Positions 33,019 to 42,496 of a DNA stretch of 64,000 bases are shown one piece after another. The position numbers were made by a program, and so were the translations under genes. The stretch is from positions 3,048,272 through 3,112,271 of the forward strand of contig NZ_CP093845.1 of the NCBI RefSeq assembly GCF_024732245.1, read 5' to 3'. Position 1 is the stretch's first letter. Each line of letters opens with the position of its first letter. The DNA comes from Dietzia sp. B32. Its GTDB lineage: Bacteria > Actinomycetota > Actinomycetes > Mycobacteriales > Mycobacteriaceae. A model generated the notes under the pieces. That model ran no database searches. It saw only the letters and a list, made by a program, of their open reading frames with translations, and was not told where the DNA came from.

Positions 33019-34449
33019 ATGTCAGATCGACTCGACCACGTCCAGGCCACCCTCGAGACCGCACTCGAGGACCGGCCCGAGGACGGCATCATCCGCGCCA
33101 ACCGCCGCATCTTCACCGACGAGGAGATCTTCGAACTCGAGATGAAGCACATCTTCGAGGGCAACTGGGTCTACCTGGCGCACGAGAGCCAAGTCCCCGA
33201 GGTCGGCGACTACTTCACCACCGACATCGGTCGCCAGCCCGTCGTGATCACCCGCGGCAAGGACGGGCAGCTCAACTGCCTCATCAACGCCTGCTCGCAC
33301 CGCGGCGCGATGCTGTGCCGGCGCAAGACCGACAACCGCACCACCCTGACGTGCCCGTTCCACGGCTGGACGTTCTCCAACTCGGGCGAGCTGCTCAAGG
33401 TCAAGGACCCGCGTGACGCCGGCTACCCCGAGCAGTTCAACACCGACGGCTCCCACGACCTGCGACGCGTGGCCCGCTTCGAGAGCTACCGCGGTTTCCT
33501 GTTCGGCAGCCTCAACCCGGACGTCCTCCCGCTGGAGGAGCACCTGGGCGACAGCCGGACCGTCATCGACATGCTGGTCGACCAGTCCCCCGAGGGACTC
33601 GAGGTCCTGCGCGGCTCGTCGACCTACACGTTCGACGGCAACTGGAAGCTCCAGGCCGAGAACGGCGCCGACGGATATCACGTGTCGGCCACCCACTGGA
33701 ACTACGCGGCCACCACCGCACGCCGCTCGTCCGGCGAGTCCAAGAACGAGACCAAGGCCATGGACGCCGGTACCTGGGGCAAGCAGGGCGGCGGCTACTG
33801 GTCGTTCGAGCACGGGCACCTGCTGCTGTGGATGTGGTGGGGCAACCCCGAGGACCGGCCGCTGTGGGACCGTCGCCAGGAGCTCGCCGACCAGATCGGC
33901 ACCAAGAAGGCCGAGTTCATGGTGGGCGCCTCGCGCAACCTGTGCCTGTACCCGAACGTCTACCTGATGGACCAGTTCTCCAGCCAGATCCGGCACTTCA
34001 AGCCCATCTCGGTCGACAAGACCGAGGTGACGATCTACTGCATCGCACCCAAGGGTGAGAGCGCCGAGAACCGCGCGGCGCGGATCCGCCAGTACGAGGA
34101 CTTCTTCAACGCCACCGGCATGGCGACCCCGGACGACCTGGAGGAGTTCCGCTCCTGCCAGAAGACGTACCTCGCCGACGCCGCGCCGTGGAACGACATG
34201 ACCCGCGGCAGCACCCACCAGCTCACCGGTCCGGACGAGACCGCCCGTGGCCTGGGGATGGAGAACGTGCTGTCCTCCGGCGCCAAGACCGAGGACGAGG
34301 GCCTCTACCCGATCCAGCACGCCTACTGGCTCGAGACCATGCAGCGTGCCCTCGAGGCCGAGTCCGCCGCCCGCGACGAGGCCGAGCGCCGGGCCCGCGA
34401 GGACGCCGGGGCCCGGGTGCATCGCACGACCGTCGCGGCCGACGCCTGA
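33019..34449 (+). CDS. benA: Benzoate 1,2-dioxygenase large (alpha) subunit
   Basis: A 476-residue Rieske non-haem iron oxygenase subunit that dihydroxylates benzoate to the cis-diol carboxylate. The Rieske ligands are in CSHRGAML and [10 protein letters not shown]. The mononuclear iron site is in [13 protein letters not shown] (Asp-x2-His-x4-His). The start at 33019 has an AGGAG ribosome binding site. The C-terminal Glu/Arg/Ala-rich helix ([18 protein letters not shown]) is typical of BenA/XylX proteins. First gene of the benABCDKRE run. Confidence 0.96.
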
Positions 34450-34500: not shown

Positions 34501-35010
34501 ATGACCGCACCCGCCGTGGCGTCGATCTCCGTCGACGAGATCTCCGCTTTCCTGTTCCGCGAGGCACGACTGCTCGACGACCGCCAGTTCGAGCAGTGGA
34601 TCGAGTGCTATCGCGAGGACGCGATGTACTGGATGCCCGCCTGGGACGACGACGGTGAGCTCACGACCGATCCGTACTCGGAGATCTCGTTGATCTTCTA
34701 CCCCAACCGGGCCGGTATCGAGGACCGGGTGTTCCGCATCCGGACCGAGCGTTCCTCCTCGACGTCGCTTCCCGAACCGCGGACCAACCACCTCATCAGC
34801 AACGTCGAGGTGCTCGACCGCCGTCCCGGCGAGGTCGACATCCGCTTCAACTGGTTGTCGTCGTACTTCCGTTACAACACCACCGACCAGTACTTCGGGA
34901 CGTCCTTCTACACCCTCGACGTCACCGGCGAGTCGCCGCTGATCACCTACAAGAAGGTGGTCCTGAAGAACGACTACATCCACCACATCGTGGACGTCTA
35001 CATGGTGTGA
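34501..35010 (+). CDS. benB: Benzoate 1,2-dioxygenase small (beta) subunit
   Basis: A 169-residue NTF2-like beta subunit of the ring-hydroxylating dioxygenase. The sequence REARLLDDRQFEQWIECY followed by EDAMYWMPAWDDD is characteristic, and it ends in KKVVLKNDYIHHIVDVYMV. It has an AAAGG ribosome binding site. It forms the oxygenase with benA upstream. Confidence 0.95.
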   Translation: MTAPAVASISVDEISAFLFREARLLDDRQFEQWIECYREDAMYWMPAWDDDGELTTDPYSEISLIFYPNRAGIEDRVFRIRTERSSSTSLPEPRTNHLISNVEVLDRRPGEVDIRFNWLSSYFRYNTTDQYFGTSFYTLDVTGESPLITYKKVVLKNDYIHHIVDVYMV

Positions 35011-35102: not shown

Positions 35103-37172
35103 ATGAGCTATTCAGTGGCCCTGGCCTTCGAGGACGGCGTGACGCGCTTCGTCAACTGCGGTCCGACGGAGACCGTCGCCGACGCCTCGTACAAGGCCCG
35201 GATCAACATCCCCCTCGACTGCCGTGACGGAGCGTGCGGGACGTGCAAGTCCCTGTGCGAGTCCGGCGAGTTCGACGGCGGCGACTACATCGACGACGCC
35301 CTCACCGAGGACGAGGCCGCGGCCGGCTACTGCCTGCCGTGCCAGATGGTCCCGCGGTCCGACCTGGTCGTGCAGATCCCCACCACCTCCGATGTGGCCA
35401 AGACGGCCGCCGCGGCGCACCCCGCGACGGTCACGGCCGTCGAGCGGCTGGCCGAGGGCGCGTTCGCGCTGTCCGTCGAACTGGACGACCGCGACGCCCT
35501 GGCGTTCCTGCCCGGCCAGTACGTCAACATCTCGGTCCCGGGCACCGACCAGACACGGTCGTACTCGTTCTCCACCGGTGCGGACTCCCGGAACCTGTCA
35601 TTCCTCATCAAGTACGCCGCCGGCGGCGCGATGTCGGAGTACCTGGCCCAGCGCTGCGCCGTGGGCGACCGCCTCGAGCTGACCGGCCCGATGGGCAGCT
35701 TCTTCCTCCGCGAGTCCACCCGTCCACTGCTGCTGCTGGCGGGCGGTACCGGCCTGGCGCCCGTGCTGTCCATCCTCGAGACCCTCGCCGCCGCGGGCAC
35801 CTCCGACCGCCCGGTCCACCTCATCTACGGCACCTCGTTCGACACCGACGTGGTCTACACGGACCTGCTCGACGAGTTCACCACCCGGATCCCGGGCATG
35901 ACCTGGGATCTGGTCGTCTCCGACCCGGCGACGACCCACCCGAACAGCGGATACGTCACCGGTCTGATCCGGCCGGAGCACCTCCACGACGGGACGACCG
36001 ACATCTACCTGTGCGGGCCACCACCGATGGTCGAGGCGGTGCGCGGATTCCTCGACGACGAGGGCCTGCAGGTGACGCACTTCTACTACGAGAAGTTCAC
36101 CCCCGCGACCGCGGTGCCCGACCAGTCCGCCGAGCGCGCCACGGAATCGGCGGAGCCGACTGAGGAGGCCGCCCTCGCCGTCGACCCGTCCCCCACCACG
36201 CCGGAAACGACGACGACGACGACGACGACAACGGCAGCAGCAACGGCAACGGACATTCCCGTCGCCGCGCCCGCACCCGTGGCCGAGCCCGCGGCACCCG
36301 CCGCGGCCACCACGGCCCCGGCCGCACCACACGGGCCGGCCCGGATCCTCTCGCGCCGCCCCGGGGACCCCGTGCCGGCCATCGAGGCCCGACCGGTCGG
36401 CTACACCCCGCCCGCCCCCGGCGGCCACACGGCGCCCGTCACCCGGACCGCCGAGCCGGTGGCGAACATCGCCGCGCGCCCGGTCGGGTACACCCCGCCG
36501 GCCCCGGGCGGACACGCCGCACCAGGCGTCCCCGCGACCGAATCTCCCGCGCCCATCGCCGCGCGCCCGGTCGGTTACGTCCCGCCGCAGGTCACCCTGA
36601 CGCGGGCGTCGACCGCGCCCACCGCGGGGACCACGACCACGGTGTCCCTGGCCGGCGGAGGCCGTTCCGAGACCATCACCTCGGCCCCCGGCGTCGTCAG
36701 CGGCGAGGTGCACCCGGCGATCCGGCACTCCGACGCCCAGTTCGACGCCCGCATGGCGCTCGAGCTCGGCGTGATCGAGCTGACCATGGGACGCCTCGAC
36801 GACGCCCGGCTCGCCGAGTTCCGGTTGCTCGCCGAGTCGGCCAACCAGTACATCGAGCGCGACAGGTTCCTCGATCCCGAGCGGTTCACCGCCGCGAACG
36901 CGCAGTTCCACGAGTTCCTGTTCCGCTGCACCGGCAATGACTCGCTGCTGCAGGCCTACCGCATGCTGGAGGTGACCCAGGTGATGAACCGCGTCCTGCC
37001 CGACGCCCGCTGGGTGTCCGAGGACATCGTCCCCGAGCACCTTGAGATCGTCGCGGCCTTCGAGACCGGTGACCGCGACGCCGCGCGATACCTCATCCGT
37101 CGGCACAGCGAGCACGCCAAGGCCACCATGCGCACCGCGCTGGACCAGAACGCCGTGGAGGCCGCGTCGTGA
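35103..37172 (+). CDS. benC: Benzoate dioxygenase reductase fused to a C-terminal FCD (GntR-type effector) domain
   Basis: A 689-residue protein; classical BenC is about 340. Residues 1-95 are a plant-type ferredoxin with Cys40, Cys45, Cys48 and Cys80. Residues 100-335 are a ferredoxin-NAD reductase unit with RSYSFS (152-157), GGTGLAPVLS (214-223) and CGPPPMVEAV (304-313). Residues 335-535 form a Pro/Ala/Thr-rich linker with a nine-threonine tract and three ARPVGYxPP repeats (429, 458 and 487). Residues 540-685 match an FCD domain, with candidate metal ligands His603, His646 and His668 and the phrases NAQFHEFLFRCTGN and TGDRDAARYLIRRH. No winged helix is present. It overlaps benD by four bases (GTGA). 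The reductase role is certain; the role of the FCD part is unknown, perhaps aromatic-acid or metal sensing. Confidence 0.9.
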   Translation: MSYSVALAFEDGVTRFVNCGPTETVADASYKARINIPLDCRDGACGTCKSLCESGEFDGGDYIDDALTEDEAAAGYCLPCQMVPRSDLVVQIPTTSDVAKTAAAAHPATVTAVERLAEGAFALSVELDDRDALAFLPGQYVNISVPGTDQTRSYSFSTGADSRNLSFLIKYAAGGAMSEYLAQRCAVGDRLELTGPMGSFFLRESTRPLLLLAGGTGLAPVLSILETLAAAGTSDRPVHLIYGTSFDTDVVYTDLLDEFTTRIPGMTWDLVVSDPATTHPNSGYVTGLIRPEHLHDGTTDIYLCGPPPMVEAVRGFLDDEGLQVTHFYYEKFTPATAVPDQSAERATESAEPTEEAALAVDPSPTTPETTTTTTTTTAAATATDIPVAAPAPVAEPAAPAAATTAPAAPHGPARILSRRPGDPVPAIEARPVGYTPPAPGGHTAPVTRTAEPVANIAARPVGYTPPAPGGHAAPGVPATESPAPIAARPVGYVPPQVTLTRASTAPTAGTTTTVSLAGGGRSETITSAPGVVSGEVHPAIRHSDAQFDARMALELGVIELTMGRLDDARLAEFRLLAESANQYIERDRFLDPERFTAANAQFHEFLFRCTGNDSLLQAYRMLEVTQVMNRVLPDARWVSEDIVPEHLEIVAAFETGDRDAARYLIRRHSEHAKATMRTALDQNAVEAAS
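36207..36233 (+). repeat. ACG trinucleotide tract in the benC linker
   Basis: Seven ACG units at 36207-36227 followed by ACA ACG, encoding nine threonines at residues 369-377. Slippage here would change linker length in whole codons without shifting the frame. Confidence 0.85.
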
Positions 37173-38002
37173 GCGCGCCCGTCGGCGAGTACGACGCCGT
37201 CCCGCCCGTCGTCTCCCCCGGCCGCTTCGCCGGCCGGTCGGTACTCATCACCGGCGCCGTGCAGGGGATCGGCCGCGCCGTAGCCGACCGGGTGGTCCGC
37301 GAGGGCGGGCTGGTCACGGTGGTGGACCGGGCCGACCTCATCACCACGGTCGCCGACGAGCTGACCGCGGTGTCCCCGGACGGTCACCGGGTCGTGCCCG
37401 TCGAGGCGGACCTGGAGACGTTCGAGGGGGCCGAGGCCTCGGCCCGTGCGGCTCTCGACGCCCACGGCCGGATCGACGTGCTCATCAACAACGTCGGCGG
37501 CACCATCTGGGCCCGGCCGTACCACGAGTACTCTGCCGACCAGATCGAGGCCGAGGTCCGCCGGTCCCTGTTCCCGACGCTGTGGATGTGCCGGGCTGTC
37601 CTGCCGTCCATGGTCGCGGCGGGCGCGGGCACGATCGTCAACGTCTCCTCCGTGGCGACCCGCGGGGTCAATCGCGTCCCCTACGCCGCGTCCAAGGGCG
37701 GGGTCAACGGCCTCACCTCGGCGCTCGCGCTGGAGGCCGCCCCGCACGGGGTCCGGGTGGTGGCCACCGCCCCCGGCGGCACCCTCGCCCCCGAGCGGCG
37801 GATCTCCCGTGGCGGCGACGCCCGCACGGACCAGGAGAAGACCTGGTACTCGCAGATCGTCGAGCAGACCGTCGACTCCACCGTGATGGGCCGCTACGGC
37901 ACGCTCCACGAGCAGGCCGCCCCGATCTGCTTCCTCGCCTCCGACGAGGCCTCCTACATCACCGGTTCGGTCCTCCCCGTCGCCGGCGGCGATCAGGGCT
38001 GA
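37169..38002 (+). CDS. benD: Benzoate cis-diol dehydrogenase
   Basis: Oxidises 1,6-dihydroxycyclohexa-2,4-diene-1-carboxylate to catechol with NAD+ and loss of CO2. The 277-residue SDR starts with a GTG and has the cofactor motif TGAVQGIGRAVADRV, NNVGGTIW in place of NNAG, and a catalytic YAASKGG. It overlaps benC by four bases, indicating coupled translation. Confidence 0.95.
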   Translation: MSAPVGEYDAVPPVVSPGRFAGRSVLITGAVQGIGRAVADRVVREGGLVTVVDRADLITTVADELTAVSPDGHRVVPVEADLETFEGAEASARAALDAHGRIDVLINNVGGTIWARPYHEYSADQIEAEVRRSLFPTLWMCRAVLPSMVAAGAGTIVNVSSVATRGVNRVPYAASKGGVNGLTSALALEAAPHGVRVVATAPGGTLAPERRISRGGDARTDQEKTWYSQIVEQTVDSTVMGRYGTLHEQAAPICFLASDEASYITGSVLPVAGGDQG

Positions 38003-39628: not shown

Positions 39629-42496
39629 ATGACCTTCGCCCACCCCGTCCCCCGTTACGGTCACCACCGCGCCGCGGATCGCCTCCACGCGATCCACGGC
39701 GCGGTGGCGGGCAAGCGATCGACGATCGTGCTGGTCACCGCCGCCGACGGCGGGGGCAAGAGCCACCTCGTCGATTCCGTGGTCGCCGAACTCACCGGGG
39801 TCACCTCGGTTCTCGTCCGCGCCCTGCCGTGGGAGAAGGACACGAGGTGGGTGGTGGCCGCCAGGGTCCTCGAGCGGCTGCCCCGGCCCGACACCGAGCC
39901 CCCCCGTCGCGCCGGGGCCGCGGAGCCGGTGGGCGCAGCGTCGACCGAACCGGTCGGCGACGCGGTCCTCGTCGACGCACTGGCCCCGGCGTTCGTCACC
40001 GCCGGCCCCGGCGCCGTGGTGGTCGTCGACGACGCGGAGTACTCGGACCCCGACTCCCTGCGGGTCCTCGCCTCCGCGGTGGAGGCCGCGGGCCGGGCCT
40101 CCGTCCTGGTCGTGCTCACCCTCGGCAGCCCCGCCCACGGACCCTCCGCCGATCTGTGCGCGGAGCTCGCCCGCGAGACGGTGCGGCTGGGCTCCCTCGA
40201 CCAGTCCGAGATCCGGACCCTCGTGGCGACCCGGACCGGGCGCGAGCCGTCGGCCGCGGCGGCCCGACGGCTGCTGGACTACACGGGCGGCGAGGCGGGG
40301 GCGGTGGCGACAGTGGCCGACCAGGCGCCCGACTCGTGGTGGATCGCCCCCTTCTCCGTCCCTCCGCTGCCCGCGTCCGTCGAACGGGAGACGGCGGCAC
40401 GGCTGGCGGCGATGGATCCCGAGCAACGCGAGGTCATCGAGGCCGCCGCCGTCCTGACGCCCCCGGTCACGCTCGAATCACTCACGGCGCTCATCTCCGC
40501 GCGCAGCGGGGCCACGCCCGGCACGGCGCTCGTCACCGCCGCCCTGGACGCCGCCCATGCCGCGGACCTGGCGCAGGTGGACCTCTCCCCCGGCGCCGCG
40601 ACCCTCCGATTCCGCTCCCCCCTGCTGCGGACGGCGGTCCTGCGCGGGATACCACCCAGCGAACTGCTGCACCTGCACTCACTGGCCGGCCTCGTCGCCG
40701 AGGCCGCCGACGACCTCGACGCCGCACTCGATCACCGAGCGTCGGCGTCCACCGGTCCCGACGCCGACCTGTCCGAGACCCTGCGGGCCCGCGCCCTCGT
40801 CCACGCCCGCGCCGGCCGCTGGAGTGCGGCCGGGCACGCCTACCTCACCGCGGCGGCCCTCACCCCGGACACCGACCGCGCCCGCGATCTCCACATCGAC
40901 GGGGTCGACGGTCTGATCAACGCCGGTCGGATCAGCGAGGCCCGATCGCTCGCGCAGGGGCTGGAGCGGGTGCGGTCCGATCCCCGCCGGGACGCGGTGC
41001 TCGGGTCCCTCGCCGTCCACCTCGGGCACGCCGGGGAGGCCCGGGTCCTGCTCGATCGCGCGCTCGCCGCGCGCGAGGACGGCGTACCGGGATCACCCGC
41101 CGCGGACCCGGTCGCCCTGGCCCAGAAGTTCGTCGTCCACTCCCTGTGCGAGTGGCGGCCGGCCCGCATCCGACACTGGGCGCGGGTGGTCACCAGCAGC
41201 GGACGCCCGGATCAGCCCGAGGTCGAGGAGGCCCGGGCGATCGAGATGCTGGGGCGCGCGATCGAGGGAGGCCCCGACGCGGCCCCTCCCGTCGAGGACC
41301 GACTCCCCGGCCTCGCGCCGGCCGTGGCGCAACGTTTCGAGATGGCGTCGGGATGGATCGCCCTCGCCCACGACGACCTGGAGACCGCCCGCCGCCACCT
41401 GGGGTCCGCGGTCCCCACCGCGGACGTCTCCGGCTCCGCGCGGATCTCCATCTGGGCCCAGGCGTGGCTCGCCCGCACCCTCCTGCTGCGCGGCGACTGG
41501 GACGACGCGTTGCGCGTGGTGGACACCGCGGCCCGCCGGGTGGACGACCTCGAACTGGACCTGCTCGCCCCGGTCGTCCACTGGCCCGGCGCCGTCATCC
41601 GGTCGATGCGCGGGGACCACCTCGGTGCCGCCGCGCATCTGCGCAACCTCACCACCAGCGCCGATGCCTACCCGATCCAGGTCATCCCCTCCGCCATGGC
41701 CCGGATGCAGGTGGCGGCCTCCTCCGGCGACTACACCTCCGTGCGCCTGGCCGCGGAGCCCGTCGTCGCCCTCTCCCGCGAGATCGACATCGACCAGCCC
41801 GGCTACTGGCCGTGGCACGACCTGTACTCCCACGCCCTCGTCCTCGCGGGCCGGATCGACGAGGCGGAAGAGCTCATCGGCCCCGCCGAGGCCCGGGCCG
41901 AACGCCAGGGCCACCGTTCCACCCTGGCCCGCCTCGGGGCGGTCCGGGCCCGCATCGCGGCCGTGCGCGGGGACGTCGACGAGTGCAACCGGATCTTCCG
42001 CCGCAGTCTCGACCACCTCGACGGACTGGCCATGCCCTATTACTCGGCACGCATGCACTTCGGCTACGGGCAGACGCTGCGCCGGGCCGGCCGGCGCCGT
42101 GAGGCGCACCTCGCGCTGGGCACCGCTCGTGACATCTACGAGCAGCTGGGCGCCCGGGCCTACGTGGAGCGGTGCGACCGCGAACGCCGTGCAGGCGGTG
42201 TGGACGTGACCCGGACCGGGGGCAACAGCACCCTCACACCCCAGGAGACCGCGGTCGCGACCCTCGTCGCCGCGGGCCGCACCAACGCCCAGGCGGCCGA
42301 GGAGTTGTTCCTGTCCATCAAGACCGTCCAGTACCACCTGACCCGCATCTACTCGAAGCTCGGGGTCAGTGGCCGCACGGAGTTGGCCGCCCACGTCTCC
42401 CGCGGCAGCGAACCCTTCCGCACCGACCCCTTCCGTACCGACTCACCCCGTATCGACTCACCGCGTACCGACCCCGACCCGACGGGAGACCTGTGA
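39629..42496 (+). CDS. benR: Large ATP-binding LuxR-family regulator (LAL type), BenR-like
   Basis: A 955-residue transcription factor. The N-terminal ATPase has a degenerate Walker A, AADGGGKS (38-45), and Walker B VVVVDDAEYSD. A long helical middle region looks like tetratricopeptide repeats. The LuxR helix-turn-helix lies at about 867-922 (LTPQETAVATLVAAGRTNAQ, then SIKTVQYHLTRIYSKLGV). The last 25 residues hold imperfect FRTDP/PRTDP repeats. It starts 4 bases after benK and overlaps benE by four bases. In C. glutamicum a LuxR-type regulator occupies the ben locus, so activation of ben genes is likely. Confidence 0.87.
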   Translation: MTFAHPVPRYGHHRAADRLHAIHGAVAGKRSTIVLVTAADGGGKSHLVDSVVAELTGVTSVLVRALPWEKDTRWVVAARVLERLPRPDTEPPRRAGAAEPVGAASTEPVGDAVLVDALAPAFVTAGPGAVVVVDDAEYSDPDSLRVLASAVEAAGRASVLVVLTLGSPAHGPSADLCAELARETVRLGSLDQSEIRTLVATRTGREPSAAAARRLLDYTGGEAGAVATVADQAPDSWWIAPFSVPPLPASVERETAARLAAMDPEQREVIEAAAVLTPPVTLESLTALISARSGATPGTALVTAALDAAHAADLAQVDLSPGAATLRFRSPLLRTAVLRGIPPSELLHLHSLAGLVAEAADDLDAALDHRASASTGPDADLSETLRARALVHARAGRWSAAGHAYLTAAALTPDTDRARDLHIDGVDGLINAGRISEARSLAQGLERVRSDPRRDAVLGSLAVHLGHAGEARVLLDRALAAREDGVPGSPAADPVALAQKFVVHSLCEWRPARIRHWARVVTSSGRPDQPEVEEARAIEMLGRAIEGGPDAAPPVEDRLPGLAPAVAQRFEMASGWIALAHDDLETARRHLGSAVPTADVSGSARISIWAQAWLARTLLLRGDWDDALRVVDTAARRVDDLELDLLAPVVHWPGAVIRSMRGDHLGAAAHLRNLTTSADAYPIQVIPSAMARMQVAASSGDYTSVRLAAEPVVALSREIDIDQPGYWPWHDLYSHALVLAGRIDEAEELIGPAEARAERQGHRSTLARLGAVRARIAAVRGDVDECNRIFRRSLDHLDGLAMPYYSARMHFGYGQTLRRAGRRREAHLALGTARDIYEQLGARAYVERCDRERRAGGVDVTRTGGNSTLTPQETAVATLVAAGRTNAQAAEELFLSIKTVQYHLTRIYSKLGVSGRTELAAHVSRGSEPFRTDPFRTDSPRIDSPRTDPDPTGDL

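Follow-up and report, generated by a model that had tools for sequence, protein, structure and literature searches.

FCD domains are known from GntR regulators, where they form the sensing half of the protein. A comparable appendage occurs on an enzyme, the p-hydroxyphenylacetate hydroxylase reductase C1 of Acinetobacter, whose regulator-like domain binds the substrate and relieves autoinhibition. C1 and the protein described here are alike in that each serves an oxygenase of aromatic acids as its reductase and bears a regulator-like effector domain. However, C1 is a flavin reductase and its extra domain is MarR-like, whereas the present protein carries an FCD domain on BenC, a reductase that consumes the NADH made by BenD.

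According to the accessible text of the papers concerned, the zinc ligands of LldR are His148, His196 and His218 (PMC4746285), and a metal is required for binding of the carboxylate effector by DgoR and CitO (PMC7674646, PMC4746285). BenC has been linked to an FCD domain in print before. In 2019, one sentence on Gordonia alkanivorans YC-RL2 described benC and benD as fused with an FCD domain (PMC6362181). The benC product of Rhodococcus sp. TG-1 was called an FCD domain-containing protein in 2025 (PMC11858498), and benC of R. ruber was labelled reductase/diol dehydrogenase (PMC6498646), so the BenC-FCD fusion is already known. The accessible portions of these three papers give no function for the FCD domain, and that of the Gordonia paper is silent on metal site, distribution, mechanism and linker motif. 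A literature search pairing "FCD domain" with ferredoxin found nothing, and the spelling "(FCD) domain" in PMC6362181 escapes that phrase.

Layout of the Dietzia protein and its operon

The window, which is the whole 64,000-nucleotide stretch of Dietzia sp. B32 DNA that was analysed, contains a benABCD cluster. The benA and benB genes lie upstream and benD downstream of an extended benC, each scoring above its family cut-off, and the GTG start of benD overlaps the benC stop by 4 nt. The features of the cluster are as follows.

33019..34449, + strand, benA, oxygenase large subunit (TIGR03229, 845.9 bits, cut-off 780.95)
34501..35010, + strand, benB, oxygenase small subunit (TIGR03232, 256.6 bits, cut-off 225.55)
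35103..37172, + strand, benC-FCD gene, 689 aa
35130..35354, + strand, 2Fe-2S ferredoxin domain, residues 10-84 (Pfam match, Fer2, PF00111)
35424..35702, + strand, FAD-binding domain, residues 108-200 (Pfam match, FAD_binding_6, PF00970)
35733..36044, + strand, NAD-binding domain, residues 211-314 (Pfam match, NAD_binding_1, PF00175)
36120..36710, + strand, low-complexity, fast-evolving linker of ~200 residues, residues about 340-536
36356..36616, + strand, three linker repeats of about 29 residues each, with ARPVGYxPP
36741..37112, + strand, FCD domain, residues 547-670 (Pfam match, PF07729)
36897..36911, + strand, predicted metal ligands N599 and H603 (alignment with LldR)
37038..37040, + strand, predicted metal ligand H646 (alignment with LldR)
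37104..37106, + strand, predicted metal ligand H668 (alignment with LldR)
37169..38002, + strand, benD, diol dehydrogenase (NF040811, 404.1 bits, cut-off 380)
39629-42496, LuxR-type protein, 955 aa (GerE domain; AAA match just below cut-off)

The LuxR-type protein is the probable regulator of the ben operon. Further on past the ben genes lies a probable transporter, read from the sequence alone. Between 30600 and 32691 on the minus strand, divergent from the operon, are a catechol dioxygenase gene, catA, recognized by Pfam, and a probable muconate cycloisomerase gene, catB, assigned by reading only.

An initial sequence-only reading had described one 689-codon frame holding a ferredoxin, an FAD/NAD reductase, a linker and, in residues 540-689, an FCD domain without its GntR partner. 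Pfam and NCBIfam bear this out. The frame runs from 35103 to 37172 on the plus strand without a break, and the FCD match scores 66.6 bits (gathering cut-off 24.3, E 3.7e-18). The BenC equivalog model NF040810 matches residues 3-334 with 483 bits (curated cut-off 430), covering model positions 1-332 of 333. No helix-turn-helix family is present among the Pfam matches of the protein at E values up to 1. BenC-FCD thus has PF07729 in common with the effector domains of the GntR/FadR regulators LldR, TM0439, CitO and DgoR, and the three LldR histidines align, but it lacks the N-terminal winged helix-turn-helix of that family. Its catalytic part is composed of Fer2, FAD and NAD domains rather than the flavin-reductase domain of C1; the entry 5zc2, which bears the p-hydroxyphenylacetate hydroxylase reductase name, matches the latter domain.

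The same reading had allowed that the frame might be an assembly artefact joining two genes. This is excluded, because the Dietzia genome is a single contig of 3.73 Mb and six further genomes of the genus share both gene order and architecture with differing linker lengths. The length differences among these congeners are of whole codons, and a run of threonine codons occupies the linker at 36120-36300 of the window. The window's FCD domain shares 98% identity with its Dietzia maris counterpart and 95% with that of D. natronolimnaea.

BenC proteins of Azospirillum, Paracoccus and Roseomonas share the ferredoxin-FAD-NAD part encoded in a ben cluster, where they are 54-58% identical to the window protein. 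However, they end at 340-347 aa without a linker or FCD domain, in agreement with the earlier statement that classical BenC stops after the reductase. The Gordonia protein joins BenC to an FCD domain as in Dietzia, but is also fused to BenD according to its accessible description.

Distribution, partners and history of the FCD domain

BenC frames above the family cut-off are present in 11 of 23 genomes of the window's genus, 47 of 397 in a draw from the order and 13 of 394 in a draw from the class, these draws overlapping. From such draws, 60 BenC loci besides the window were fetched, comprising 39 BenC-FCD-BenD triple fusions, 9 BenC-FCD fusions, 2 BenC-BenD fusions without FCD and 10 with BenC alone. 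The last group consists of four loci cut by contig ends inside the linker, one (L130) below the family cut-off and five FCD-less BenC genes. Among intact loci over the cut-off, all in actinobacterial genomes, an FCD domain is present in 48 of 55, with 39 as triple fusions. It is absent from the BenC-BenD fusions L081 and L087 and from the BenC loci L069, L070, L072, L111 and L113, and hence is dispensable in some lineages.

An FCD-profile scan of named records was restricted to the best 80 of 204 relatives, overlaps the fetched set and cannot count FCD-less BenC. These 80 loci include 54 triple fusions, 24 BenC-FCD fusions (3 Dietzia, 20 Rhodococcus and 1 Arthrobacter) and 2 cut by contig ends, and BenC precedes FCD in all but the two that are cut (78 of 80). 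Only 3 of the 23 Rhodococcus loci in this set are triple fusions, the remaining 20 being without fused BenD, and BenD is unfused in all six intact loci of the window's genus. In triple fusions, the distance from the end of the FCD domain to the BenD match is 12 residues in 31 of 39 cases (range 3-18, from BLAST ends). The supposition that long BenC forms may exist in related genera is therefore correct, while the label "orphan" for the FCD domain does not hold: BenC-FCD is an architecture conserved among actinobacteria, and its Gordonia form had been noted before (PMC6362181, from its accessible text). Related bacteria often have the fusion and conserve it strongly, and it is probably no accident.

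Two kinds of locus deserve separate mention. The benC gene on a Tsukamurella tyrosinosolvens plasmid (L003:6001-8583) encodes an 860-aa triple fusion that is annotated as BenC only. Certain Rhodococcus loci (L071, L144, L147, L149, L150, L152, L192 and L201, with L071 identical to L152) contain, no more than about 6 kb from benC-FCD, a second reductase frame that is BenC-like (33-37% identity) and lacks an FCD domain.

Of 16 pattern matches in viral contigs none was confirmed, and eight phage records match in the reductase part only. Searches of 118 class genomes at E 1e-8, with up to 34 candidates scored in each, and of 396 phylum genomes at E 1e-20, with 10 scored in each, found no free-standing BenC-type FCD domain. 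Beyond the BenC type, the next matches in those genomes belong to GntR proteins of the ordinary kind or to flavin reductase fusions.

Relatives of this FCD domain are nevertheless joined to other partners. Five Paraburkholderia plasmid records encode a 929-aa protein (counted from ATG) consisting of a BenC-like reductase, an FCD domain and a cytochrome P450:

L004:4948-7737, also L005-L008, Paraburkholderia reductase-FCD-P450 (Pfam domains checked in one)

This protein is possibly a self-sufficient P450 with an unfamiliar domain order. With the BenC-FCD profile, its FCD domains score 132-141 bits, compared with at least 194 for BenC-type FCDs and at most 48.6 for the ordinary GntR proteins seen; in a direct comparison, five ordinary GntR proteins reached no more than 47 bits. 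The P450 fusion examined contains no BenD. Among the actinobacterial plasmid matches listed, the closest relative of the P450 partner is a separate gene of Rhodococcus sp. USK10 (47%), and no BenC-FCD frame is present in 13 kb near it. No paper on a P450-FCD fusion was found among the literature matches listed, a scope with subscription journals mostly outside it.

In the draw of 396 phylum genomes, seven have an FCD match at E 1e-20 or better, four of them BenC frames and three flavin reductase fusions (L240-L242). The latter are the best FCD matches outside BenC in these genomes (83-102 bits), and a GntR helix-turn-helix between flavin reductase and FCD exceeds the cut-off in one of the three. 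A protein from a plasmid of Dietzia lutea (L243:3953-5143) aligns to one of them over 92% of its length with 41% identity. Like BenC-FCD, these proteins have the FCD domain on an oxygenase-serving kind of reductase, although the reductase fold differs. Judging from profile matches, the BenC-type FCD subfamily also joins a BenC-like reductase to a P450 and, within the sampled genomes, has its nearest other kin on flavin reductases, both of which are new here.

A quick LG+G4 tree of 138 reductase domains was built without L065-L068, draft loci cut in the linker, and with seven distinct second BenC-like frames plus L130 as outgroup; several long branches meet in it, which leaves the deep order unsure. 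BenD fusions form one clade of 86 rows (99*), within which L081 and L087 are without FCD and L111 and L113 are without both FCD and fused BenD. The BenD fusion therefore looks like one event. Because Dietzia and the BenC-FCD loci of Rhodococcus fall outside this clade, the tree suggests that BenC-FCD is older than the triple fusion. Fission of a former BenC-FCD-BenD protein as the source of the Dietzia form is not favoured, given the position of Dietzia. In a 35-row FCD tree, BenC-type FCDs are a single clade in 12% of 200 bootstrap trees, which weakens any claim of a single origin, and the order of the BenC-type, P450-fused and flavin-reductase groups is not separated.

Metal-site residues, selection and linker motifs

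Alignment with LldR (2di3) places N599, H603, H646 and H668 (domain positions 63, 67, 110 and 132) opposite D144, H148, H196 and H218. The E value is 0.027 with a profile, weak by itself, and 0.00061 with the single sequence, and both alignments read alike. Searched against solved structures, an FCD profile from alignment A2 gives no match at E 0.001, and one from alignment A3 has its best GntR protein at E 0.0063. His603, His646 and His668, named as hallmarks in the sequence-only reading, thus occupy the positions of the LldR zinc ligands, and neither they nor R550 vary in any of 117 distinct BenC-type FCDs. N599 is retained in 113 of the 117 and replaced by T in the other four. The three histidines are also present in all five ordinary GntR proteins compared, and so the triad marks an intact FCD domain rather than a special one.

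From alignment and spacing, we infer that R550 is the pocket arginine, a counterpart of CitO R97, and would contact the effector. The invariant arginine and the metal-ligand positions make carboxylate binding by BenC-type FCDs likely. Position 637 is W in 111 of 112 FCDs that are not fused to P450 and E or K in all five that are, as if the pocket had been retuned in the P450 fusions.

Purifying selection on the FCD domain is about as strong as that on the reductase. When the window is compared with five congeners, BenC has a dN/dS of 0.10-0.13 and FCD one of 0.07-0.20, whereas that of the linker is 0.39-0.58. The repeat-containing part of the linker (residues 425-500) has values of 0.25-0.87 and is no better kept than the rest. 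Two of its three repeats are reported by a repeat-finding tool (87 nt, 72% identical), the third being recognized by eye and in a six-protein alignment.

The linkers of triple fusions carry a motif, R-x-[IVL]-[AVICTS]-G-Q, at least one copy of which is found in 75 of 78 linkers (78 of 82 distinct triple fusions were counted); there are 147 copies, compared with a mean of 0.12 in 200 shuffles. These counts are without L065-L068, cut in the linker, the eight second BenC-like frames, and the linkers of L072, L082, L084, L085, L091 and L130, four of which are triple fusions with visible motifs. Most triple-fusion linkers have one to three copies of R-x-[IVL]-A-G-Q, and adjacent copies are mostly 28-33 residues apart. 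By eye, distinct first, middle and last versions can be discerned in the linkers of L073-L114 (for example L079 and L087). Elsewhere the motif is found in 2 of 2 BenC-BenD fusions, 0 of 30 BenC-FCD fusions, 0 of 5 P450 fusions and 2 of 10 proteins with BenC alone (six of them proteobacterial).

With a stricter pattern, 140 matches (counting duplicates) fall in BenC frames and none in the remaining 1.33 million residues translated from these loci, many of them from frames that are not real genes. When a motif profile was run over 16 whole genomes, the best 24 matches (to E 0.0145) were all in BenC, and the first outside had E 0.0167. Ten of these genomes supplied proteins to the profile. Genome G320, which has a BenC-BenD fusion and supplied none, shows three copies at 2.3e-7 to 2.6e-6. 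Since only 150 of the first-look candidates were scored in seven of the 16 genomes, weak copies outside BenC could be missed. The significant matches to this newly recognized motif are all in BenC. The three Dietzia copies of ARPVG[YF]xP have a similar spacing and are perhaps a diverged form of it. Because the motif is kept where FCD or fused BenD is gone, we infer that the motif more probably has BenC itself or BenAB as its partner than FCD or BenD. Lengths of BenA and BenB show no difference that tracks the motif (class medians 454-468 for BenA and 169 for BenB).

Possible functions of the FCD domain

The reading we favour, with a probability of about 0.45 and so somewhat short of an even chance, is that the FCD domain equips this benzoate dioxygenase reductase with a carboxylate sensor of its own, dependent on metal, through which electron delivery is tuned. 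A carboxylate of the pathway, such as benzoate, its cis-diol or muconate, would be held by the arginine and a divalent metal, and binding would alter either electron uptake by BenC from NADH or transfer to BenAB, such that NADH would not be wasted without substrate. The linker would let the FCD domain reach the reductase and, through its repeated motifs, might hold the oxygenase nearby. The action on the reductase is modelled on that of C1. A sensing role is supported by the match to a true FCD, the lack of a helix-turn-helix, the conserved ligands and R550, purifying selection, the need for metal in carboxylate binding by DgoR and CitO, and the changed residue 637 of the P450 fusions. The FCD domain also accompanies BenC-type reductases with BenD, with a P450 or with no partner downstream, and its flavin reductase kin count in the same direction because they are another kind of oxygenase electron donor. 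On the other side, a distance of 12 residues to BenD suits a spacer too, the FCD domain is missing from seven BenC loci, and the Dietzia repeats are no better conserved than the rest of the linker.

A structural role is the less probable but still serious alternative. The FCD domain, with a structural metal, would bring BenC, BenD and the BenAB hexamer, or the P450, together by dimerizing or docking the reductase, and NADH from BenD could then be reused by BenC. Such a tether is also alive as an explanation because the domain so often lies between two enzymes: BenC and BenD flank it in 39 of the 60 loci fetched and in 54 of the 80 named ones (best 80 of 204; the sets overlap), and a BenC-like reductase and P450 do so in the five plasmid records. 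The near-constant spacing to BenD (31 of 39 triple fusions) and the retention of the linker motif where FCD is lost fit as well. However, an invariant arginine beside the metal triad would be superfluous for pure scaffolding, and BenD is unfused in six loci of the window's genus and, among the best 80 of 204, in 20 of 23 Rhodococcus loci and one Arthrobacter locus. Cofactor recycling may still be a benefit of joining BenC and BenD in the triple fusions, as BenD-made NADH is the substrate of BenC.

The adjacency to BenD and the likely carboxylate pocket could also mean that the FCD domain holds the acidic cis-diol product and hands it over to BenD, with no gating of the reductase. This is improbable, since the domain seems older than the BenD fusion, which is one clade beside unfused FCD-bearing BenC, and BenD is lacking from the P450 fusion examined. 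Absence of the domain from some BenC proteins might be taken as a sign of a decayed regulator domain without present function, but dN/dS of 0.07-0.20 and ligand positions invariant over many genera make this very hard to sustain. Least credible is a second role for BenC-FCD in regulating transcription of the ben operon. FCD domains are familiar from GntR regulators, yet the protein has no helix-turn-helix and the LuxR-type protein at 39629-42496 could regulate the operon.

Built on the sensing role is a broader proposal that we regard as tentative and rather doubtful. One FCD subfamily might be a plug-in substrate sensor for oxygenase electron donors, namely actinobacterial BenC and the BenC-like reductase-P450 of Paraburkholderia, with nearest kin on flavin reductases. 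In BenC-FCD-BenD, R-x-[IVL]-A-G-Q linkers would dock the reductase to the oxygenase, giving a sensor-gated, NADH-recycling assembly.

Beyond the known fusion, the additions made here are the single BenD fusion, selection on the FCD domain, the P450 and flavin reductase kin, the linker motif, and the metal-site invariance, in which H603, H646 and H668 are predicted by alignment to match the LldR zinc ligands and the triad and R550 are constant among BenC-type FCDs. The linker motif and the P450 fusion provide further concrete objects for tests. A large, conserved set of enzymes with a metal-ligand-intact FCD domain suggests that enzyme activity, too, may be under the direct control of this sensor. 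In that case, oxygenase reductases could be switched by the acids of their own pathway, with a bearing on wasteful NADH use in biodegradation and on engineered oxygenase systems.
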